The notes below the pieces were generated by a model. That model saw only the letters and a program-made list of their open reading frames with translations. It was not told where the DNA came from and searched no databases. Source: an uncultured Gammaproteobacteria bacterium (lineage in GTDB: Bacteria; Pseudomonadota; Gammaproteobacteria; GCA-001735895). From it: DNA of 47,273 nt. The position numbers were made by a program, and so were the translations under genes. Below are positions 6,383-18,878 of this stretch, in pieces. Every line of letters starts with the position of its first letter. Within the stretch, counting starts at the first letter, position 1. The stretch lies in contig CAMYML010000002.1 of assembly GCA_947259305.1 (NCBI GenBank), forward strand, positions 1-47,273, given 5' to 3'.

Positions 6383-6982
6383 TTAGCCCTGCTTCAGGTA
6401 TAGCACCAGGCCGACGCGGTCTCTAAGCTCGAGTTTCCTGAAAATATTGCTTAGATGGGTCTTTACGGTAGGTTCGGAAATTTCGCACAAATCGGCAATT
6501 TGACGATTTGATTTGCCATCGGCGACGGCCAGCGCGATTTCCTTTTCGCGCCCGGTTAACATCTCCAGCGGTTTTTCCGCGGGCGCTGGTTTCACGGCCT
6601 GCTGCGCCAGTTTGAAGGTTTCGTCCAGCATCTGCGGTGGAAACCAGCTTTGTCCCTGGCCCAGCAGTTGCAACAACTGGTTGTAATGCAGCGCTGCCAT
6701 GTGGCTGTTGCAATAGGCCTTGGCGCCAAGCCGCACGCATTCGAGCATTTCGCGGATATCGGGTAAATCCGAGCAGACCCCGACCGGGATCGGCTTGCCG
6801 GATACATGTCTTAACAGCCATTCATAGCAATCGAGTTCCATACCCGAAATATGCAACAGGTATTGCTGCTCCGGATCGTTGGTCGGGGCTTGCAGCTGTG
6901 CACTAAATTCAATCTCGGCTTCCAGATGATGGTCCAGAAACTTTACAAATGAACTCGATATTGAGTAAACGATCAATTTCAT
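6383..6982 (-). CDS. LuxR-type transcription regulator with degenerate receiver domain
   Basis: A 199-residue regulator. Residues about 1-125 look like a receiver fold (late part VRLGAKAYCNSHMAALHYNQLL), but no acceptor Asp is evident where phosphorylation would be expected. Residues about 140-199 are a LuxR/FixJ helix-turn-helix: LTGREKEIALAVADGKSNRQIA, then SEPTVKTHLSNIFRKLELRDR. Its ATG overlaps the stop of the lapC gene (TAATG), so it is translationally coupled to the secretion genes, and it sits directly upstream of the adhesin. The architecture resembles CsgD-like biofilm regulators. Control of the adhesin promoter is inferred from position. Confidence 0.85.
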   Translation of the reverse strand: MKLIVYSISSSFVKFLDHHLEAEIEFSAQLQAPTNDPEQQYLLHISGMELDCYEWLLRHVSGKPIPVGVCSDLPDIREMLECVRLGAKAYCNSHMAALHYNQLLQLLGQGQSWFPPQMLDETFKLAQQAVKPAPAEKPLEMLTGREKEIALAVADGKSNRQIADLCEISEPTVKTHLSNIFRKLELRDRVGLVLYLKQG

Positions 6983-8346
6983 TAACGTTCTCTTAACGCC
7001 TTGTCTATCCCGCGATGCACCGGTTCAGTCAGGTAAGACAGAATCGTTTTCTTGTCAGTGATGATGTCCGCCTCGGCGGTCATGCCGATTTTGATCGGTA
7101 AATCTCCGCTTTTTACGCCCAGAAAAGATTTACCGGGTTTGACCCTGACCAGGAAAAAGCTCTCTCCCTCTTCGTTGGTAATCGTATCCGCACTGATGAA
7201 GGTCACAATCCCCTGCAAGCTGCCGTGGATGGCAAAGTCGTAGGCAGAAAATTTCAACCTGGCGAATTGTCCGACGCTGACATAGGCAATGTCGGCAGGT
7301 TTGATTCTTAATTCGACCAGTAGCGCATCTTCTTGAGGCACGATATCGAGAATATTGTTACCGGGGCTGACGACGCCGCCGATGGTGTTGGTATAAAGGC
7401 GCTGCACGATGCCGTTGACCGGCGAGCGCAGGGTAGTACGCTTGACTCGATCCTGCAACGCGGTCTGGGTTTCCCGGATGCGGCCGATTTCCGCATTGAC
7501 CTCGTTCAATTCTTTTTTCGCCTTATTCTGAAAGTCGAGCCGCTCTTTCTTTTTGTTGAAACGGGCTTCGTCGATGGTCGACCTGATGCGCGGTATCGAT
7601 AATTTGACCGCCTCGATTTCACCTTCCATTTCCGCTTCGCGTTGCTGTAACTGCAGGAATTCGACTTCGCTGATAATGCCGCGATCCTTTAGCGGCTTTT
7701 TGATTTCGATCTCTCTTTTAACCAGCTCCAGCGATTTTATAAGCTGCTTTTGTTTGGACTGGGCCTCCAGCAGTGCGCTTTGCTGCTGGGTAATTCGCTC
7801 TTCGAGCACGCCCAGGGTTTCCTTCAATTGTTGCTTGTTGCTGTTGTACAGGCTCAGTTCCGATTTGATCAGCTGCGGCGCGTTGGCGTCGACTTCGGTA
7901 TCGGGCTTAAACGCGAGTTCGAAGGCTTCCGCGTTGAGGCGGCTGGAGCGGGCCAGCAGTTCGAGATAGAGCAACCGGTTTTCCTCGAATGAACTCGAAA
8001 AGGCAACGTCGCTGATTTTAATCAGCGACTGACCGGCGACCACGGACTGGCCCTCGACGACCATGATTTCCTCGATGATGCCGCCTTCGAGGCTTTGTAT
8101 GTTCTGTACCTGGCTCGCCGGGGATACCTTGCCGGTACCGCGAATAACGACATCAATTTTTGCCCAGTTCATCCAGACGATCGCGGCAATTACAAACAGT
8201 GCGATGATCATGACCACGGCGATCAGGTAGCGCGGCGTGCGGTGCACGGCGGCGGCCGACAGGCTGCGCATGTATTGCATGTCCTGCTTGCCATGCACGC
8301 CCATCTGGGTCGAATCTTCGAAGTCGGTATTGTCGTCGTTATCCAT
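6982..8346 (-). CDS. lapC: Type I secretion membrane-fusion protein, HlyD family (LapC)
   Basis: A 454-residue periplasmic adaptor that links the ABC transporter to the outer-membrane channel. It has an acidic cytoplasmic N-terminus, one membrane segment at about residues 40-60 (LIAVVMIIALFVIAAIVW), a first half lipoyl/barrel segment (GTGKVSPASQVQNIQSLEGG), a long coiled coil at about 150-290 rich in Glu, Lys and Gln, and a second lipoyl-barrel part (TLRSPVNGIVQRLYTNTIGG). The length is normal for the family. The start overlaps the lapB stop by 8 bp, and the stop overlaps the regulator start by 1 bp. Confidence 0.93.
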   Translation of the reverse strand: MDNDDNTDFEDSTQMGVHGKQDMQYMRSLSAAAVHRTPRYLIAVVMIIALFVIAAIVWMNWAKIDVVIRGTGKVSPASQVQNIQSLEGGIIEEIMVVEGQSVVAGQSLIKISDVAFSSSFEENRLLYLELLARSSRLNAEAFELAFKPDTEVDANAPQLIKSELSLYNSNKQQLKETLGVLEERITQQQSALLEAQSKQKQLIKSLELVKREIEIKKPLKDRGIISEVEFLQLQQREAEMEGEIEAVKLSIPRIRSTIDEARFNKKKERLDFQNKAKKELNEVNAEIGRIRETQTALQDRVKRTTLRSPVNGIVQRLYTNTIGGVVSPGNNILDIVPQEDALLVELRIKPADIAYVSVGQFARLKFSAYDFAIHGSLQGIVTFISADTITNEEGESFFLVRVKPGKSFLGVKSGDLPIKIGMTAEADIITDKKTILSYLTEPVHRGIDKALRER

Positions 8347-10492
8347 TCTGAGTACCTTTGAGGGCGTTCAGCACGTCTTCCTTGGGGCCATCCATTACGA
8401 TTTTACCTTCGTCCATAACGATCAGGCGCTCCACCAGGTCGAGCATTGGCGCCTTATGCGTTACCAGCAATAGCGTCTTGTCGCGGGTGTAGTCGTACAA
8501 TCGTTTCTTGACGATGGATTCGGTGGTGTTGTCGAAACTATTGGTCGGTTCGTCCAGAATCAGAATCGGTTCGTTCAGCAATACCGCCCGACCCAGTGCG
8601 ATCGCCTGCCTTTGTCCGCCCGATAAAAAGCCGCCGCTCTCGCCGACCTGGGTATCGAAGCCTTGCGACAGCTGGTTAACGAACAAATCTACGCCGCAAA
8701 TACTTGCCGCCTCGATCAGTCTATCGTCGTTGGCGTGCAGGTCCTTGTAAGCGATGTTTTCCCGGATCGTGCCGCGTAGCAGTTCGATATCCTGTGACAG
8801 GTAACCGATGTTCTTACGCAGGTCGGCGGGGTCGATCTGATTGATGTCGATATCGTCGATTGCGATCGAACCACTATCCCCCTGGTAAAGACCGATGATC
8901 AGTTTCAGCAGGGTAGTCTTGCCCGAACCGACCTTGCCGATGATGCCGACATGCTCACCGGGGCGAATCTTGAAGCTGATGTCGTTGAGCGATTTTTTGC
9001 CTGATTCGGGGTAGCTGAAATCCAGGTTGCGAAAACGGATGCCGCCATCGAAGCCGGGGCGCCGCACGTAAGATTTCCCCTCGGGTCGCTCGATCGGTTT
9101 CTGCATCAATTCGTCGAGTGAACGAAACGCGGTTCGGGTCTGTTCGAAGCTGGTAATCAGCGCCGCGATCTGCCCCATGGGTCCGACCGCGCGCGAGGAC
9201 AGCATGACGATGGCGATTAGCCCTCCCAGGCTCAGCTCCTGGTCGCTGATCAGGTAGATGCCAAACACGATCAGGGCGATGGTATTGAACTGCACCAACA
9301 GGTTGGTAACCACGGCAATCGACGAAGACAGCATGCGCGCGCGCATCGATTTATTGGCAATCGTGCCGGAGGATTCCTCCCACACCCATTGCGAATAGTT
9401 CGCGGCGCCGAGCGCCTTGACGGTTTTTATCGAATGCAGGGTCTCGATCAAATGGGCGTTCTTGTTGGCGGTGGCTTCATAGGTTGCCTCGACGCTGGCC
9501 TTGAGCGGCTTGACCAGGATCAGGCTGTAAAGCAGCAGGAGCGCGATGATCACCAGCGGCACCGCGATCATCGGTCCGCCAATCGTGTAAATCACCAGCA
9601 GGAAGATGACCGCGAAGGGCAGGTCGACCAGCGTCGCCAGGGTCGATGCGGTAAAAAAATTACGAATGCTCTCGAACTCTCGCAGCTGGCTGGCAAAGGC
9701 GCCGATGCTCGGCGGCCACTGGCTCATCTTCAGATTCAGCACCTGGGAAAAGAGTATCGACGACATGATGATGTCGCTTTTCTTTCCCGCGATCTCGAGC
9801 AGATAGGTACGCACGAAGCGTAACAGCGTATCGAACAGGTAAACCGTGACGATGCCGGCCGCGAGCACCCACAGGGTCGCGATGGCGTCGTTCGGCACGA
9901 CCTTGTCGTAGACGTTCATGGTGAACATCGGCGTCGCCAGTATGAACAGATTGATCAGGATCGACGACAGCAATACGCTGGCGAAAATATCTCTCGATTT
10001 GCCCAGTGTGCTCCAGAACCAGTGCTGCGAACCCGTGCGGGTGGTTTTTGCCGCGGTCGCGGATTCCTGCTGGAATTCCTTTTTGAGGAGAAAGGCATAG
10101 CCGAGGTATTCCTGCTTCAAGCGCTCCAGTTCCAGCCATTCCTCACCTTCGCCAATCTCGGGAAAAATAACCTTGGCGCGTTTGTTTTTACGATCGATGC
10201 TTTCCAGGATGCAGGCATTGCCGTTCTTCAGCACCAGGATGCAGGGCAGCAGCAAACGCGACAGACTGGCCAGCTCACGATGGATCAGCCGGCTGGCGAA
10301 CCCGGCGCGCGCGGCGACACGGGAAAACAAACCCTTGGGATTATCGATGCTGAACAGCTCGGGACCGTCGGCGCCGGGTTTGACCGGCAGCCCTGCAATC
10401 AGGGCCTCGACGCTGATCGGCCGATGGTGCAACTTCGCGAATATAACCAGGCACTCGAGCAGAGGGTCATATTGATGCTGTGGATCAATCAT
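8339..10492 (-). CDS. lapB: Type I secretion ABC permease/ATPase (LapB)
   Basis: A 717-residue inner-membrane exporter for the adhesin. The N-terminal 130 residues resemble a C39-like domain (PLLECLVIFAKLHHRPIS) in which the usual catalytic Cys position is not matched, as in LapB/HlyB transporters that bind the substrate without cutting it. Membrane segments cover about residues 150-430. The nucleotide-binding domain has Walker A GKVGSGKTT, signature LSGGQRQ, Walker B ILILDEPT and the switch His in LLLVTHKAP. A 140-bp gap with a possible promoter separates it from lapD upstream, and it overlaps lapC downstream. Confidence 0.94.
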   Translation of the reverse strand: MIDPQHQYDPLLECLVIFAKLHHRPISVEALIAGLPVKPGADGPELFSIDNPKGLFSRVAARAGFASRLIHRELASLSRLLLPCILVLKNGNACILESIDRKNKRAKVIFPEIGEGEEWLELERLKQEYLGYAFLLKKEFQQESATAAKTTRTGSQHWFWSTLGKSRDIFASVLLSSILINLFILATPMFTMNVYDKVVPNDAIATLWVLAAGIVTVYLFDTLLRFVRTYLLEIAGKKSDIIMSSILFSQVLNLKMSQWPPSIGAFASQLREFESIRNFFTASTLATLVDLPFAVIFLLVIYTIGGPMIAVPLVIIALLLLYSLILVKPLKASVEATYEATANKNAHLIETLHSIKTVKALGAANYSQWVWEESSGTIANKSMRARMLSSSIAVVTNLLVQFNTIALIVFGIYLISDQELSLGGLIAIVMLSSRAVGPMGQIAALITSFEQTRTAFRSLDELMQKPIERPEGKSYVRRPGFDGGIRFRNLDFSYPESGKKSLNDISFKIRPGEHVGIIGKVGSGKTTLLKLIIGLYQGDSGSIAIDDIDINQIDPADLRKNIGYLSQDIELLRGTIRENIAYKDLHANDDRLIEAASICGVDLFVNQLSQGFDTQVGESGGFLSGGQRQAIALGRAVLLNEPILILDEPTNSFDNTTESIVKKRLYDYTRDKTLLLVTHKAPMLDLVERLIVMDEGKIVMDGPKEDVLNALKGTQNG

Positions 10493-10632: not shown

Positions 10633-12558
10633 CTATATCGCCTCCGGAGAACCCAGGAAATTGCCCTGCATGGTATCGATTCCCAGTGATTTAAGTTCGT
10701 CGCATACGTTCTGGGAATCTACCGCAACGGCAATGATACGAATGTCCAGCGTATCGGTGATGGTGCGCAGGGCCTGGAATCCTGCCGCCATGTCGTTGCG
10801 GCTCATTTCATGCAGGGTAATCGCGTTGATCTTAACATAGTCGAACTGTCCCGATTGCAGCAGCTGCAGCGACTGGCCGAGATCGAGATTGTCGATGCCG
10901 AACTGGTGTTGATGGCGTCTGACGCGATCCGAAATTTTGCTGCACATGAGCGGATGCTGGTTGAGCACGTGATGGCTTGCTTCGATACAAAGCCGGGTGC
11001 CGTTTTGCGCGCAGTTGTCCAGCAACTGCTCGAACTCTTCCTGTCCCTCGGCCAGCTCGAAAAATGAAGCACTCAGATTCAGGGCCAACGGAATACTGCG
11101 GTCCAGTTCCTCGTTCGATGCCACCAGGCGAAACACTTCGCGGTCGATATCCAGCGCCATGCCCAGGCTCGAGGCCATCGGCATGAAGGCGGACGCCGGA
11201 ACGACCTGGCCCTGCTGGTTGCGTGCTCGAATGAAAAGTTCGCGCTGCATCGGCAGGCGGTCATTGCTGATTGCAAGTTGCCCGACCAGAAACAACTGCC
11301 TGCTCTCGAGTACCGATTCCAGCCAGCCACGCCACTGCATCTTGCCCTGGGGTAACTCGAGGTTAGTCGACAGCTGTCGCTCGATCGAGAACGGGCCACG
11401 GGTGTTGGCCTGTGACAGGCAGTAGTCGATTCCGGACAGAATGTTGCCAATCTCGCCTCCGGCTTCGAGATCGCAGATGCCGGCCAGTAGTTGCACCCCC
11501 GCCAGGTCGGTCTCGCGTTGAATTAATTGCTGAAAGTTATCGAACAGTTCGCGGATGTAAGCGTTGACCTCGGATTCTTCGGTGGCGCTTAGAAAAGCAA
11601 ACTCGTCTTCGTTAAAACGCGATACGCGTTCAGCTTCCTGGCCCGCATGCCTCTGGCGCAGCATGTCCGCGAGAATTCTGATCAGGTTGTCGGAAACCTC
11701 GTAGCCGTGACGATCCCTGAGCTGGTCGAAGTCGACAATTTTTATGATTGCCATGCAGCCGTGCAAGCCCGATTCTTCCGACATCGATTGCTGCAGCTGA
11801 TCCAGCAGGTAGCGCCGGTTGCCGAGGCCGGTCAGCTTGTCGTGATATAGCAGCTGCTGATAGCGGCCCAGGGTCTTTTCCTGGTCGTCGAAAATACCCT
11901 GCACCTTGGAAACCATCAGGTTCATCGCTTCGACCACGCGTTTGAGCTCGAGCGTGGCGGGCATTTTCTTCTGCTGCACGAACTGGTTGTTATGGATTGC
12001 GTCGGCCTGTTCCTTGACCCGTTGCAATGGCGCTAGCACATAGCGTAGCACCAGCCACAACACCACCATCGAGATCACGAACAGCAGTGCAAACCAGAGC
12101 AGCGCCGAGACCAGGGATTGGTACATACTGCTGTAGGCAAAGCCGGGATGCACCTCCAGATTGAGCTGTCCCAGTTGAGTCCAGCCCTTCATTACCTGGG
12201 TTGAACCGCTTGCAGACTCGAGCGGCACCAGGCCAATGAACCAGTCGGGCACAGCCTCTAAATCAAGCGCCTGGCTCTTTTGATGTATGACCTGACCATC
12301 GACGCCGACGAGTTCGATACGGGTGTAGTAGCCGCTGTCGAACACGGCGTTAAATAACACCTCGAGCGTTGCCTGGTCACCACCCTCGGGCAGATTGCTG
12401 ATGGCGATACCCAGCGTGGTTGCCATATCCTGGGCCGTGGTGCGCAACTGGCCCTGTTGAAAATTTCCGGTACGCGATAAATCGCTCATCACGATAATCA
12501 ATAACAGTATCAGGAATACCGTCGATACCAGCAGGGCGATCTGTTTGAATAAGGTCAT
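10633..12558 (-). CDS. lapD: LapD-type c-di-GMP receptor with degenerate GGDEF and EAL domains
   Basis: A 640-residue inner-membrane receptor that controls LapG. I place the start at the ATG at 12558 (MTLFKQIALLVSTVF), because it forms an ATGA overlap with the lapG stop; an upstream in-frame start would overlap lapG by more. The order is a membrane segment (about 7-24), a periplasmic domain to about 150 with the loop KGWTQLG (Trp126, near W125 of P. fluorescens LapD, which contacts LapG), a second membrane segment (about 153-175), HAMP (LAPLQRVKEQADAI), GGDEF and EAL. The GGDEF site reads NEDEF. The EAL motif reads ELF, the DDFG segment reads DNLD and the KID motif reads KIN, so neither synthesis nor hydrolysis of c-di-GMP is expected. 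Binding is. Confidence 0.94.
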   Translation of the reverse strand: MTLFKQIALLVSTVFLILLLIIVMSDLSRTGNFQQGQLRTTAQDMATTLGIAISNLPEGGDQATLEVLFNAVFDSGYYTRIELVGVDGQVIHQKSQALDLEAVPDWFIGLVPLESASGSTQVMKGWTQLGQLNLEVHPGFAYSSMYQSLVSALLWFALLFVISMVVLWLVLRYVLAPLQRVKEQADAIHNNQFVQQKKMPATLELKRVVEAMNLMVSKVQGIFDDQEKTLGRYQQLLYHDKLTGLGNRRYLLDQLQQSMSEESGLHGCMAIIKIVDFDQLRDRHGYEVSDNLIRILADMLRQRHAGQEAERVSRFNEDEFAFLSATEESEVNAYIRELFDNFQQLIQRETDLAGVQLLAGICDLEAGGEIGNILSGIDYCLSQANTRGPFSIERQLSTNLELPQGKMQWRGWLESVLESRQLFLVGQLAISNDRLPMQRELFIRARNQQGQVVPASAFMPMASSLGMALDIDREVFRLVASNEELDRSIPLALNLSASFFELAEGQEEFEQLLDNCAQNGTRLCIEASHHVLNQHPLMCSKISDRVRRHQHQFGIDNLDLGQSLQLLQSGQFDYVKINAITLHEMSRNDMAAGFQALRTITDTLDIRIIAVAVDSQNVCDELKSLGIDTMQGNFLGSPEAI

Positions 12559-13223
12559 TGTTTTTCCTTTTGTATATCGGCCAGCAGCTTCTTCCACTTG
12601 CTGTTTTTGATCTTGTTGGTGGGTAGCGATTTGCCGAGGCCGGCGGAAGCATTGGTGAGGAAAAGGGACTTGGCGTTGAAACTGTAAACCGGCAGCAGGT
12701 CTTTGCGCCGGTCAGCGCTGACGATCACCGGATTATAATTGTCCAGTATCTGCGGCACGCTGGACGGTGTCGGAAAATAGCTTAGCACCATGTGCGCGAC
12801 ATTCTGCTTCAGGGCTTTGACATAAGTCAGGTAGAGGCGCTCATCCGGCACGCCGAGCTTGCGCAGGGCGAAGTACTTGGCGATGACAAAATCCTCGCAA
12901 TCGCCTTTGTGGGTGCCGAGAAATTCGCTGGGCGTGGCCCAGTAGTCCGGTTCACCCCAGTGCACCTGGTCTTCCAGGTACTGGAACTGGTTGAAAAATC
13001 GATTTACCTCGGTCAACTGTTTCTCGATCCGCTGCCCTTTGAGTTGCACTAGCAGTTGATTGATGGCGACGCCTCGACGATAAGCCTGTTCGGAGTATTC
13101 GCTTTTCAGCTGATTTAGCATTTCATTGCTCACCAATGGACTTGCCGCCTGCCGACCCGGCGCAAGCGCCATGACCAGGGCAAAAACAGGGACCAATACC
13201 CGTTTCACCGAGCTGACCAGCAC
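12555..13223 (-). CDS. lapG: LapG-type periplasmic cysteine protease (bacterial transglutaminase-like)
   Basis: A 222-residue protease that releases the adhesin by cutting its N-terminal di-alanine site. There is a likely signal peptide (RVLVPVFALVMALAPGRQA). The bacterial transglutaminase-like cysteine protease core shows the triad Cys109 (HKGDCEDFV), His144 (NVAHMVL) and Asp161 (ILDNYNP). The start codon is GTG at 13223, and a second GTG five codons later is possible. The stop overlaps the lapD start (ATGA), so the protease and its receptor are made together. In the family, activity needs calcium; that is not visible here. Confidence 0.93.
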   Translation of the reverse strand: MLVSSVKRVLVPVFALVMALAPGRQAASPLVSNEMLNQLKSEYSEQAYRRGVAINQLLVQLKGQRIEKQLTEVNRFFNQFQYLEDQVHWGEPDYWATPSEFLGTHKGDCEDFVIAKYFALRKLGVPDERLYLTYVKALKQNVAHMVLSYFPTPSSVPQILDNYNPVIVSADRRKDLLPVYSFNAKSLFLTNASAGLGKSLPTNKIKNSKWKKLLADIQKEKQ

Positions 13224-13368: not shown

Positions 13369-15537
13369 TTACTCGCCTGACGATTTTGCTCTGAAGATGA
13401 ATTCACCGCGGCGATTGATCGCCTGGCCGGCCTCGGTGGAATTATCGGCGATGGGATTTTTCTCACCCATGCCGATGGCCTTGATATCGGCGCTGTCGAT
13501 GCCGTTGTCGATCAGCAAATTCTCGAGCGCTTTTGCACGCCGCGCAGACAGGGCTTCGTTATAGGCATCTGAACCGATGTCGTCGGTATAGGTGTAAATT
13601 TCGATCCTGATGTCCTCGGTCAACTTGATCTGTTCGATAATGGCTTCGACCCTGGATTTCGAAATATCGGTCAGTTCGGCCTCGTCGTAAACAAAATTTA
13701 CCAGCTGGATTTTCGACAGGCTCACGATTTCGGGTTCGCGCACCTTTATCTGCACGGTTGCGGTCGCGGTGGCTGCGGCGCCGTTATTGTCGGTCACCGT
13801 ATACTTGAAAAAGTCCTGGCCGACGAATCCTTCGATTGGCCGGTAGACGAGGTTACCACTTTGATTGAAAGCCAGTCGGCCGACTTCGGGCTGGCTGACG
13901 TCGACGATTTCCAGCGGATCGGAATCCGCGTCGATGTCGTTGGCCAGCAGTTGCGCCTGGGTGATAACCAGTATGCCGTTGGTTTCGATTTCGAATTCAT
14001 CGTCTTTCAGGATCGGCGTCGAGTTCGGTTTGGGTAACTCGATTTCGACCCTGGAGATGACGCTGGATTCATGGCAGCCGTAGGGATTAACCAGCATGCC
14101 GCTGAGCGAGTTATCGCAATGATCCAGCGGGTCGAATTCCCGGTCGGCGTCTTCGTCGTCGGGTAGCGGCAGTTGATCGACCTCATCGGCCACCAGTCGT
14201 GCTATCCTGAGCCTGCCCTGATCGAGCTCGAACTCGATATTGGCGGCTTCAAACAAGCGGCCGATGCCCTCGTAAACCCGGTAGCGGGCGCTCAGCGCGT
14301 CATACTTCGCTTCGGCAAGCTGGTTGCTCGCGCTATTTAGCTCGTTGGCGGCATCCAGCAGGTCGATCAGGTCGCGCTGCCCGATAAAAAACTCTTCCTG
14401 ATAGGATTCCACCGTCTGGCCGGCCTTGATGACATGCGCCTCGAGAAACTTCAGTTGCTTTGCCAGCAGGTCGTCGGCGGTCCAGGATAAACGCAGGGTG
14501 TTAATCACCTGGCGTCGAACCCGCGCGGCGAATTCCTTTTGTTCATAAACCGCGCTGATTTTCTTTTGCCTCTCGGCCTGGTTTCTGCCGCCGCTGTAAA
14601 AATTATAGGTCAGGTTCAGTACCAGGCTGGTTTCTTCGGTATTGCCATCGAGCCCGCCGATATCGTCGCCATATTCGGTCGCGAGCCGCAGGTCGAGATT
14701 GGGATAACGGGTACGCAACGAACGCCGATGATCTGACTGCGCGGCCTCTATATTGCCGGCCGCGACCCGCATCGCCGGATGATTGCCGAGCGCCTGATCG
14801 ATCAGCATATCGAGATCTTCGCGCGGCAGGGGCGGCAGGTCCGGATCGGACAGGGCTTGCGGATCGACATAACGGCCCAGAATCTGGTGCAGTTGCGTTG
14901 CCGCATCTGCGAGATTATTTTGCTGGGCTATCAGGCTCGCCTGCGCACGCGCCAGGCGACCCTCGGTCTGCTGCAGTTGCGAGCGCCGGCCGACCCCGGA
15001 CAGGTTGCGGTCCCGAATCTGCGACAGGATTTCTTCGTGCTCCGCGACGTTTTCAAGCGCCAGCTGGTACAGGCGTCGTTGCTTGATGACTTCCATGTAA
15101 GCCTGGATCGCGCGCAGCGCAATATTGTCAGCCGTATCGTAGACATCGAACAGGGCGGCCCTGGTCCGGGCTTCGGTCTGCTCGATCTGATAAGTGGTAT
15201 CGTATCCGTTGAACAGGTTTTGCGTCAGCGCCAGCTCGACATTACTGCTGTTATAGCTTTCCGACCGGTTGCCGGTAACGGGCGATTCGGTTTCATAAAC
15301 CCCGCTGGAGGCTTCCAGGTCGACACTCGGCCGCCAGCCGCTCTCGGCGACATCGCGATCGCTTCGCACCTGCCGGTAAACGTGTATCTTCTCTTTGACT
15401 TCAGGATGGGCACTGACTGAATCGACGATCATATCGGACAGGTCCAGCGCCATTAGCGGCGCGGGCAGCAGCAGCGACAGTAAAATTACTGTCAGCGTGG
15501 TCTTCGATATAAGGCCTCGACAATTCCTGGCGTTCAT
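13369..15537 (-). CDS. TolC-type outer-membrane channel fused to a cadherin-like and an OmpA domain
   Basis: A 722-residue outer-membrane protein, far longer than a usual TolC/LapE (about 450). The order is a signal peptide (1-30), TolC outer-membrane efflux halves (about 31-450, with the repeated pattern of helical stretches and beta segments such as NVELALTQNLFNGYDTTY), a linker with two Cys, a cadherin/tandem-95-like beta domain (about 505-600, LLANDIDADSDPLEI and DFFKYTVTDNNGAA), and an OmpA peptidoglycan-binding domain (about 604-722, NEALSARRAKALENLLIDNG and NRRGEF with the conserved Asp in TYTDDIG). In Shewanella bpf clusters the TolC and OmpA proteins are separate neighbours, and here they are one chain. 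It is the first gene of the lap cluster. It is expected to act as the channel for the adhesin and to tie it to the cell wall. Confidence 0.93.
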   Translation of the reverse strand: MNARNCRGLISKTTLTVILLSLLLPAPLMALDLSDMIVDSVSAHPEVKEKIHVYRQVRSDRDVAESGWRPSVDLEASSGVYETESPVTGNRSESYNSSNVELALTQNLFNGYDTTYQIEQTEARTRAALFDVYDTADNIALRAIQAYMEVIKQRRLYQLALENVAEHEEILSQIRDRNLSGVGRRSQLQQTEGRLARAQASLIAQQNNLADAATQLHQILGRYVDPQALSDPDLPPLPREDLDMLIDQALGNHPAMRVAAGNIEAAQSDHRRSLRTRYPNLDLRLATEYGDDIGGLDGNTEETSLVLNLTYNFYSGGRNQAERQKKISAVYEQKEFAARVRRQVINTLRLSWTADDLLAKQLKFLEAHVIKAGQTVESYQEEFFIGQRDLIDLLDAANELNSASNQLAEAKYDALSARYRVYEGIGRLFEAANIEFELDQGRLRIARLVADEVDQLPLPDDEDADREFDPLDHCDNSLSGMLVNPYGCHESSVISRVEIELPKPNSTPILKDDEFEIETNGILVITQAQLLANDIDADSDPLEIVDVSQPEVGRLAFNQSGNLVYRPIEGFVGQDFFKYTVTDNNGAAATATATVQIKVREPEIVSLSKIQLVNFVYDEAELTDISKSRVEAIIEQIKLTEDIRIEIYTYTDDIGSDAYNEALSARRAKALENLLIDNGIDSADIKAIGMGEKNPIADNSTEAGQAINRRGEFIFRAKSSGE

Positions 15538-15833: not shown

Positions 15834-16106
15834 TTAACCGTAGAGTACGTAGGCCAGCACCGCGGAGGCTGCCAGGCCGAGGGCGATGATGATCCAGTCC
15901 GAGGGGGTATAGGATTTTTGCGCTTTCGGGGTATCCGAACCCTGCGTGATAGCGGTAAAGTTTTTTAGATCGGACTCATCGATGCGGCCCCTGGTTTGCA
16001 GGCGTTTTAACAGTTGGGCGCGAATCTCGATATATTGTTCACGTGAAATCAGATCGTTCGCATAGGTTTTTGCGAGCAGGCGGAGTGGGGATGTCTGCCG
16101 TTCCAT
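15834..16106 (-). CDS. Small tail-anchored protein of the kinase cassette
   Basis: A 90-residue protein not recognised by name. The N-terminal part (LLAKTYANDLISREQYIEIRAQLLKRL) resembles short SHOCT-like helices. A polar linker follows, and a single C-terminal membrane segment (IIIALGLAASAVLAYVLYG) ends the chain. The ATG at 16106 forms a TGATG overlap with the kinase stop; a TTG one codon upstream is also possible. Coupled translation suggests it works with the kinase, perhaps as a membrane partner or substrate, which is inference. Confidence 0.75.
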   Translation of the reverse strand: MERQTSPLRLLAKTYANDLISREQYIEIRAQLLKRLQTRGRIDESDLKNFTAITQGSDTPKAQKSYTPSDWIIIALGLAASAVLAYVLYG

Positions 16107-18103
16107 CAATCGAGATACTGCGCGTTAATCTGCTTGTTGAGACTTTGCAGACGAGTGTCCTCCGGGAACATTTTGAGGCCGGTGATGATGTAGTTTGATG
16201 CGTCCTTGTACTTGCGTTTGGCAATCAGTTTTTCCGCTTCGGACAGATACAGGTCTGACAGCGCCTTGTCTTTGAGCAGGTAATGCTTGGGATCGACGCG
16301 TTTGATCAGCGGCATGACCGTGGTGAGATCTTCACCGTTGGCGGATTTGACCAGTTTCTTCTCCTTGAAGTAGCGCTTGTACAGCGAAACCAGGCTATTC
16401 ATCAGGCGATCGCGTTGCTCCTTGACCTGATCTTCGATGGTCGAAAGGGCCACGGAGTCGGGGTAATGTTTTTTTGCCTGGGCCAGCAGGTTCTGCGCCT
16501 GTGGGTAATCGTACAGGCCTTCCTTGGGTCGAAATACCGAGCGAATCCGATCGCGGTAAAAGGTAATGATTTCACGCCGTAAACCGACCGAAATGATTTT
16601 CTGCTGCTGCGGTTCGAGTTGATCCAGCGACCAGATCGTCTCGATCATCATCGCCTTGTCGCCATTTTTAATGAGTTGAATCTTGTCGTAAAGCGCCTGC
16701 TCGGCACGGAAGGCAAGGAACGGCTTATAGCCGACGCCGGCGCCGATGACCGCGATAAACAGGGTGACGAGCAGGATCGACTTGGTGTGCGATTTCTTCG
16801 AGCGCATACCCTCTGCGAATTTTTCGACATCGGCAATCCGATCTTCACGCACCACGGTTAGCGCTTTCATCAGGGTTTTCTGCTGGCGGCGATTCAGGCC
16901 CTTGATCGGCTTGGGTTTAATGCCCAGTTCCTTGATCTTGGGAGACGCTACCTTGTTATAGGGGTGCTTGCCGCCGGCGAGTAGCTGGTAGGCAACACAG
17001 GCAAGGCCATAGATATCGTCGCGCGGATCGGGATTCATTCCGGCAAACATTTCCGGTGTAGCGTAGGCCGGAGTTACCGCACTCAGCTTGGCCGGATCGA
17101 ACATGGTGTTCTCTCTTTCCTCGTCGGTTTGCGTGCTCGCGCGCGCGATGCCGAAATCCAGCAGTTTGACGTGACCGTCGTTCAGCAGGAAGCAGTTGCC
17201 GGGCTTGAAATCGGAGTGGATCAGCATTTTTTCGTGCGCATAGGCGAGGCCGCTGCAAAGCTCCTCGATGATATGCAGGGCGTGATCGAGCTTGAGCGGT
17301 TTTTTGGCAATTTCCTTGATCAGCTGATTCAGCGGCTTACCCTGCAGATATTCCATCGTCATGAAGACGGTGTTGCCGTCGCGGTCGAAGTCATAAACCG
17401 TTGCGATATTGGGGTGCGCCAGGCGTTGCGCCTTGCTCGCTTCACGCTGCAGGGCGATGAACGATCCCGAATACTTTTTGAAGGCATCGGTCAATACCTT
17501 GATCGCGACGTAGGGGTCCTTGTCCTGGGCCTCGACCTTGAGTAAATCCTTGGCCTTGAAGACGACGCCCATGCCGCCCTGACCGAGTTTTTCCAGCAGA
17601 ACGAAACGATCCTTGAGGGTGACACCGGGACCCAGGTTTTCATAACGCGCCGAATTGTGCGGTTTTTCGACGATTTTCGGGCTCATCGGCGAATCGTCTT
17701 CCCTGGCACCGAGCGAGGGTTCGGAAATTTCGATTTCGTTGGTACCCTGGTTGACACTGACAATGACGGTTTTGTCGTTGGCGTCATCATCCTCGGTGAC
17801 TGACTCGAGACCCGACAGGTCGGTCAGATGCATGGTCTTGTCGTCACCGAAATAAGAAATATCGGTTTCCTGGCCGTTCTTCAGCGTGGACTGGATATTT
17901 ACCCTGGATATAACCTGCGAAATCTGCGTAAAACCGTCGGAGTCTATCTTGTCATCGGTATACAGGGATTGCAGATAGCTTTGCGCGTCGACATGACCTC
18001 CCGGCATCGCATCGAAGATGCTCGCCAGGCCCTGTTCCAGGTCGTCAATCTTTAACGAACCTGAAAAATAGTCATTGATCAGCGATTGGCAGACTTCAGA
18101 CAT
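16106..18103 (-). CDS. Transmembrane Ser/Thr protein kinase
   Basis: A 665-residue Hanks-type kinase. Residues 1-165 are an unassigned acidic N-terminal region. The kinase domain (about 166-435) has the glycine loop GQGGMG (174-179), VAIK with Lys202, Glu221, the catalytic loop HSDFKPGN (296-303) with Asp298, DFG (316-318) and the TPEMF segment. The usual HRD Arg is Ser, so it is a non-RD kinase. One membrane helix (about 442-459) leads to a helical region of about 200 residues on the other side of the membrane, possibly repeat-like (LAQAKKHYPDSVALS, LIAKRKYKDASNYI). It overlaps the phosphatase by 8 bp upstream and the small tail-anchored gene downstream. Confidence 0.93.
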   Translation of the reverse strand: MSEVCQSLINDYFSGSLKIDDLEQGLASIFDAMPGGHVDAQSYLQSLYTDDKIDSDGFTQISQVISRVNIQSTLKNGQETDISYFGDDKTMHLTDLSGLESVTEDDDANDKTVIVSVNQGTNEIEISEPSLGAREDDSPMSPKIVEKPHNSARYENLGPGVTLKDRFVLLEKLGQGGMGVVFKAKDLLKVEAQDKDPYVAIKVLTDAFKKYSGSFIALQREASKAQRLAHPNIATVYDFDRDGNTVFMTMEYLQGKPLNQLIKEIAKKPLKLDHALHIIEELCSGLAYAHEKMLIHSDFKPGNCFLLNDGHVKLLDFGIARASTQTDEERENTMFDPAKLSAVTPAYATPEMFAGMNPDPRDDIYGLACVAYQLLAGGKHPYNKVASPKIKELGIKPKPIKGLNRRQQKTLMKALTVVREDRIADVEKFAEGMRSKKSHTKSILLVTLFIAVIGAGVGYKPFLAFRAEQALYDKIQLIKNGDKAMMIETIWSLDQLEPQQQKIISVGLRREIITFYRDRIRSVFRPKEGLYDYPQAQNLLAQAKKHYPDSVALSTIEDQVKEQRDRLMNSLVSLYKRYFKEKKLVKSANGEDLTTVMPLIKRVDPKHYLLKDKALSDLYLSEAEKLIAKRKYKDASNYIITGLKMFPEDTRLQSLNKQINAQYLD

Positions 18104-18878
18104 CAGCTTCCTTCGGGCAGATTTTCATCGCGATTATCGACGTATTGTCAGTGCCGCCCGCATCCAGGGAAGAGGCCAGCAGGGTTTCGGAAAGTTCGGT
18201 CATATTCTCGAGGTGAGACTCGATAATAGGTACCAGCCTCTCCTCATCAAGATCTTTATATAGACCATCGGAACAGATAATGTAAACATCGCCTTCCTGC
18301 ATTTCGAAATAGTCGAAATCCATGCGCAGGTTGTCGTCGATGCCAACCGCTTTCAATACCACGTTGGCGGCGGGGTGCTCCTCGGCGTCCTTGGCCTCGA
18401 TTTTCCCCATTCTGACCAGTTCTTCGACATAGCTGTGATCTTCGGTCAAACGTTCCAGGGTCGAATCCCGGTAACGATAGAGGCGACTGTCCCCGGCCCA
18501 GAACGTAAACAGGTAATTGTTCCACACGTAGACACAGACCACCGTGCTGCCGATGGTTGCGTTGCGCCCCAGCTTGAAAGATTTTTTCCTGATGATCGAA
18601 TTCGAATTCAGTATATTTTCTTCGAGCAATAGTATGCTGTCATCCAGCGAAGCATGCTGCTTGAACAGGCTTAAATTGTTGGTGATCGTCTGGCTGGCAA
18701 AGTCGCCGGCGTGATGGCCACCCATCCCGTCAGCAACTATCCAGACATTCTCGTCATCATGCACCAGGATTGAATCTTCATTCTTGGTTCTGACGTGACC
18801 GGTATCGGTAACACCGTGGCTGGATATTTGGAAGCTGATTGAGGATGGTTGATCGTTCTGTGCTGTATAGCTAGCCAA
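18096..18878 (-). CDS. PP2C-family Ser/Thr protein phosphatase
   Basis: A 260-residue cytoplasmic phosphatase, the expected partner that reverses the kinase. Metal-binding motifs of the PPM family are present: RTKNED near residue 30, VADGMGGHHAGD at 48-59, AGDSRLYRYR, ICSDGLYKDL and GGTDNTSI near the C-terminus. The start is a TTG at 18878 with AGGAG about 5 bases upstream, and no ATG is available nearby. Such kinase-phosphatase pairs often accompany type VI secretion genes, but none are in the window. The pair lies directly upstream of the adhesin system and could signal to it. Confidence 0.93.
   Translation of the reverse strand: MASYTAQNDQPSSISFQISSHGVTDTGHVRTKNEDSILVHDDENVWIVADGMGGHHAGDFASQTITNNLSLFKQHASLDDSILLLEENILNSNSIIRKKSFKLGRNATIGSTVVCVYVWNNYLFTFWAGDSRLYRYRDSTLERLTEDHSYVEELVRMGKIEAKDAEEHPAANVVLKAVGIDDNLRMDFDYFEMQEGDVYIICSDGLYKDLDEERLVPIIESHLENMTELSETLLASSLDAGGTDNTSIIAMKICPKEADV

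Follow-up and report, generated by a model that had tools for sequence, protein, structure and literature searches.

A Lap-type type I secretion channel that likely carries its own peptidoglycan anchor

Adhesins of the LapA type are retained through a plug in a pore of the outer membrane, and the open-licence literature that we searched does not explain how such a pore, embedded in a soft membrane, stays in place under load. A single gene in the stretch of DNA analyzed here (the window, 47,273 nucleotides from an uncultured gammaproteobacterium) encodes in one unbroken, ATG-started frame of 722 residues a TolC-family channel, a TSP3-like linker, a cadherin-like domain and an OmpA-family peptidoglycan-binding domain (Table 1). 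In this report, we describe the fused channel, its locus and its relatives, and we argue that the protein is likely to be a Lap-type outer-membrane channel of type I secretion (T1SS) that carries its own peptidoglycan anchor.

Table 1. Features of the window and, below them, tails of TolC-family channels at other loci
Feature	Position	Strand	Basis
Fused channel gene, TolC - TSP3-like linker - cadherin-like - OmpA	13369..15537	-	Pfam, TIGR01844, orthologues
Probable Sec signal peptide, residues 1-30, no lipobox cysteine	15448..15537	-	Read from sequence
TolC/OEP channel domain, residues 32-434	14236..15444	-	Pfam OEP x2, TIGR01844, Foldseek
TSP3-like acidic linker, invariant Cys474 and Cys488, residues 454-488	14074..14178	-	Alignments, Pfam TSP_3 in relatives
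Cadherin-like / Big_9 Ig-fold domain, residues 505-597	13747..14025	-	Pfam, predicted fold
OmpA-family peptidoglycan-binding domain, residues 615-709	13411..13695	-	Pfam, phmmer, Foldseek
Codon of D652 (= A. baumannii OmpA D271)	13582..13584	-	Alignment
Codon of R667 (= A. baumannii OmpA R286)	13537..13539	-	Alignment
LapG-type periplasmic cysteine protease	12555..13223	-	Peptidase_C93 over cut-off
LapD-type receptor (LapD_MoxY_N, GGDEF, EAL)	10633..12597	-	Pfam, LapD_MoxY_N over cut-off
LssB-type T1SS ABC transporter	8339..10492	-	TIGR03375 894.5 bits, over cut-off
HlyD-type T1SS adaptor	6982..8346	-	TIGR01843 over cut-off
LuxR-type regulator, travels with cluster	6383..6982	-	GerE; order conserved in relatives
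Giant LapA-type adhesin, N-terminal 2080 residues	1..6240	-	Contig end at base 1 cuts gene
OmpA tail, genus g269	L124 8798-10654
SPOR tail, genus g269	L123 8474-10288
Short tail with apparent SPOR remnant at end, genus g269	L111 8750-10267
Other TolC tail, BBP2_2 beta-barrel	L103 6573-9176
Other TolC tail, bacterial SH3	L143 6071-8032
Other TolC tail, Cds6_C NTF2-like domain	L127 8448-10331

The initial annotation had read a channel, a cadherin-like domain and an OmpA domain in one chain and had named a domain search and an AlphaFold model as the check; both bear this layout out. Pfam matches OEP twice (3.2e-43, above the gathering score), Big_9/Cadherin_5 at residues 505-597 (7e-19 and 4e-18, above gathering) and OmpA at residues 615-709 (2e-19; 70.2 bits against a gathering score of 27.2); at 262.8 bits against a curated cut-off of 225.15, the protein also qualifies as TIGR01844, type_I_sec_TolC. 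In Foldseek, the channel part resembles TolC/ST50/OprM-type channels and the OmpA domain resembles Pal (4g4w, TMt 0.84), A. baumannii OmpA with a stem peptide (3td5, 0.78) and OprF (5u1h, 0.74), the last of which was also aligned by phmmer (1.8e-17). The AlphaFold models, which are monomers of moderate confidence with wall geometry outside their reach, fold as TolC plus OmpA, poorly over the whole chain (pLDDT 64) and at a mean pLDDT of 74 over the C-terminal part, where the Ig and OmpA cores are mostly above 75 and the strand-rich cadherin-like domain is mostly at 84-92. Public annotation labels such fused channels simply as TolC family.

Overlooked by the initial annotation was an acidic linker between the channel and the cadherin domain (about residues 454-488, DEDADREFDPLDHCDNSLSGMLVNPYGC), which contains two invariant cysteines and resembles a TSP3 calcium-binding repeat in degenerate form; Pfam finds no TSP_3 match in the window protein and reports TSP_3 at the corresponding place in three relatives (L081, L082 and L116). 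This linker is the more widespread of the two tether elements among the fusions, the cadherin domain being confined to the window clade, where it is 31-43% identical to the adhesin repeats of relatives.

An anchoring role had been made to depend on the peptidoglycan-binding residues of the OmpA domain, and the Asp/Arg pair is present as D652 and R667. The two residues are 15 positions apart, the same spacing as between D271 and R286 of A. baumannii OmpA, which hold diaminopimelate (PMC6572160), and both are invariant across 16 aligned orthologues. The D-N-R motif is intact in 24 of 32 fused OmpA domains, all window-clade members among them. Ser stands in place of the diaminopimelate-binding Asp in six fused OmpA domains (L119, L122 and L129-L131 are examples) and in 16 separate ones, including most of the separate TSP3-OmpA lipoproteins (L163-L194), and because of this replacement the wall binding of these domains may be weak or different.

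The gene is real and conserved. The initial annotation had allowed for an assembly error or a frameshift joining two genes; we looked for one and found none, and such an artefact is ruled out because intact, full-length orthologues were found beyond the window, in 13 genomes of its genus and also outside its family. Counting the window, the full-length fusion occurs in 14 genomes of the genus (orthologues 69-84% identical) and in two further genera of the family (60-63% identity), and an identical layout was found in three more families in a survey of 369 genomes of the class. In one genome (G025, L049), the fused channel gene stops after residue 276. In pairwise comparisons, dN/dS lies at 0.06-0.14 in the OmpA part, close to the 0.04-0.10 of the TolC part, indicating that strong purifying selection acts on the OmpA part.

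The surroundings of the channel gene are those of an adhesin system. Downstream on the channel strand follow LapG, LapD, the ABC transporter, HlyD, LuxR and the start of the adhesin, with the T1SS partners (TIGR03375 and TIGR01843) in one gene run with the channel, and the tight order TolC-OmpA / LapG / LapD is conserved in relatives. The LapG-type protease scores 186.9 bits against NF045674, the NCBIfam LapG equivalog, which is under its cut-off of 320. The adhesin contains 19 Ig_like_ice repeats and a TAAG at residues 106-109 of its N-terminal module, a position near which the adhesins of relatives have TAAG or PAAG; judged by its sequence, the window adhesin carries a retention module with a putative di-alanine cleavage site. 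Apart from the adhesin C-terminus, which lies past the contig end, the locus is a complete Lap-type adhesin system. Immediately upstream of the channel gene, at 16106-18878 on the minus strand, are genes for a Ser/Thr protein kinase (665 aa) and a PP2C phosphatase.

The co-occurrence of the fusion with LapA-type control, which the initial annotation had raised, is strong but not absolute. All 29 OmpA-fused loci adjoin T1SS genes, LapG/LapD or a giant adhesin, but two genomes with the fusion (G026 and G615) have no LapG match genome-wide, which rules out a strict link of the fusion to LapG, and none was found in the fusion cluster of Arcobacter. At one locus of the window genus (L044 9893-12076), the fused channel is followed directly by the ABC transporter in a cluster without LapG/LapD, and the genome gave no LapG match.

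That related clusters encode the channel and an OmpA protein as separate neighbours also proved correct. A Marinomonas algicola plasmid (this locus and that of Arcobacter were obtained by BLAST of plasmids) has the order TolC, LptE-like lipoprotein, TSP3-OmpA protein, LapG, LapD, ABC, HlyD and LuxR, which reproduces the gene order of the window, the OmpA part being encoded separately; the LptE-like gene (L081 13255-14109) lies between the TolC and TSP3-OmpA genes. Marinomonas counted, 17 surveyed loci have a separate TSP3-OmpA gene beside TolC; most of these genes encode lipoprotein-like N-termini, and they usually start -1 to +19 nt from the TolC stop, so that adjacent genes of this kind are a plausible source of the fusion. 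A further example is the OmpA-like SO4321 of Shewanella, which contributes to full biofilm, its deletion lowering biofilm (PMC4523816). A second, separate OmpA gene was found at none of the 29 OmpA-fused loci against 25 of 90 unfused loci (fetched regions; Fisher p 0.0005, with relatedness of loci not corrected for), and the searched ORFs of the window likewise include no separate OmpA gene, such as one of the SO4321 type with its own lipobox. A wall anchor is not essential, however, because 17 loci have LapG nearby yet neither the fusion nor an adjacent OmpA gene.

We then consider how often the join has arisen. On a quick tree of 124 TolC domains with SH-aLRT support only, the OmpA-fused state requires at least eight changes, in which gains and losses are not separable, and a single ancestral fusion is rejected by the AU test. 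OmpA-fused channels are polyphyletic, which suggests that other bacteria reached the same or an equivalent join several times independently. The fusion is not unique to the window organism, since it is present in other families and in Arcobacter: a plasmid of Arcobacter cloacae, from another phylum, carries TolC-TSP3-OmpA beside T1SS genes and a giant protein. At locus L092 (9123-10961, minus strand), the OmpA domain is at the N-terminus of TolC rather than at its C-terminus; this channel adjoins a giant cadherin-type adhesin gene.

In addition, the OmpA domain has alternatives. Ten Pfam-checked channels end in a C-terminal SPOR domain (L100, L113, L123, L133, L136, L145, L146, L149, L161 and L162), and no LapG was found near them in the fetched regions. 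SPOR is a wall-binding fold unrelated to OmpA. In genus g269, orthologous channels of one T1SS cluster are 75-92% identical in their TolC parts and differ in their tails, which are OmpA, SPOR or a short tail. Two further channels with a SPOR tail (L212 4117-5736 and L214 7941-9767) had no T1SS genes in the regions fetched around them, which means that adhesin export is not the only setting in which wall tails occur, and three tails of other kinds were seen (Table 1). The sample behind the tree deliberately took in long frames, and its frequencies are therefore not population estimates. None of 75 NodT-type efflux channels from 114 genomes has an OmpA- or SPOR-type tail, a count for which only the eight long-frame channels were opened, the remainder being too short for a tail; the long NodT frames, considered as candidates for wall-tailed channels, were N-terminal over-reads without wall domains. 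In an unselected sample, wall tails occur in 8 of 141 TIGR01844 channels against 0 of 75 NodT channels (p 0.053), an excess that is only suggestive. In the open-licence papers searched, we found no description of TolC-OmpA or TolC-SPOR fusions or of an interchange of OmpA and SPOR.

These observations can be combined into a mechanism. TolC termini are periplasmic, and the three OmpA domains of a trimer would therefore be able to reach the wall. They would hang in the periplasm from the trimeric channel on the TSP3/cadherin tether and grip the wall, while the N-terminal module of the adhesin would plug the pore until its cleavage by LapG; a pull on the adhesin would pass through the pore and the tether to the wall, instead of falling on the outer membrane alone. 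The fusion would fix one anchor per subunit, where other species use a separate TSP3-OmpA lipoprotein. We infer a plausible mechanical-load role for the OmpA tail, in that the anchor probably prevents the pore of this marine bacterium from being torn loose while the cell adheres. We favour this wall-anchor reading because the fold and the Asp/Arg pair are kept, with the OmpA part under purifying selection, in a Lap locus whose adhesin has the TAAG, because an unfused arrangement occurs elsewhere, OmpA-fused channels are polyphyletic, one of them has its OmpA domain at the N-terminus (L092) and SPOR takes the position of OmpA in other lineages, because fused loci lack a second OmpA gene and NodT channels lack a tail, and because deletion of Shewanella SO4321 lowers biofilm (PMC4523816). 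Against a coupling to the wall, a simulation of AtaA-TpgA indicates that an adhesin can be strengthened by a partner in the periplasm even if no coupling to the wall exists (PMC13082670).

The main rival is a role of the OmpA tail in biogenesis or placement, positioning the channel or seating it at a wall gap for tripartite assembly, with no load. We regard this as unlikely: it gains from the SPOR tails on L212 and L214, and from the E. coli lipoprotein YbjP, which binds TolC and apparently does not bind avidly to the wall (PMC13082787), but the absence of tails from all 75 NodT efflux channels and the position of all 29 OmpA fusions beside T1SS or adhesin genes speak against it, although the difference in rate between TIGR01844 and NodT channels is by itself just suggestive. 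A docking of LapG, LapD or the adhesin N-terminal module by the OmpA/cadherin tail, coupling cleavage to the pore without a grip on the wall, would fit the tight gene order and the position of the separate Marinomonas OmpA gene between TolC and LapG; it is nevertheless improbable, because SPOR can substitute for OmpA without sharing a common surface with it and some fusions occur without LapG (G615 and G026), and the Asp/Arg pair is retained in the window clade. That loss of a stop codon fused two neighbours and left the tail as neutral baggage is mechanically easy given the close spacing at split loci, but is hardly credible in view of the purifying selection on the OmpA part, the retention of the tail in several families, its repeated origin and the N-terminal version.

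Returning to the wall anchor, its parts are of known kinds (TpgA, TssL/TagL and SO4321), while the channel fusion itself is absent from the open-licence papers searched. LapE of Pseudomonas fluorescens and E. coli TolC are likewise TolC-family T1SS channels, as the TIGR01844 match places the window protein. To our knowledge, neither has a wall-binding tail. The partner that has been found for E. coli TolC is the lipoprotein YbjP (PMC13082787). The TolC-SPOR proteins also join a TolC-family channel to a C-terminal wall-binding domain, but with SPOR in place of OmpA. AggA and SO4321 of the Shewanella oneidensis Bpf system similarly bring together a TolC channel and an OmpA-like protein in a LapA/LapG/LapD-type locus (PMC4523816), but as two proteins, whereas the window has one chain with a cadherin domain. 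TpgA, which acts with AtaA in Acinetobacter, is also an OmpA-type wall-binding partner of the pore of a giant adhesin (PMC5861075, PMC13082670), but it is a separate lipoprotein and belongs to type V secretion, whereas the window has a fusion in type I secretion. In the type VI secretion system, an OmpA-like wall-binding domain is either fused to a core part, as in specialized TssL, or supplied by the accessory TagL (PMC8253398); TssL, however, is an inner-membrane protein of a contractile injector, and the window protein is the outer-membrane pore of an adhesin.

More broadly, we lean slightly towards the view that evolution has repeatedly arrived at tying the type I adhesin pore to the wall, as a general design principle: a pore plugged by a giant adhesin must pass tension to the wall, and lineages would do so through a neighbouring lipoprotein, an OmpA domain fused at either terminus or a SPOR domain fused to the channel. 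Wall-binding domains of unrelated folds have been joined to this channel class several times, which suggests that the wall is the partner that takes the load, and the wall-anchor reading would give the OmpA-like SO4321 of Shewanella, so far unexplained, a function. The natural swaps within one genus, with OmpA, SPOR and a degraded tail, constitute a clean test set for the anchor idea.
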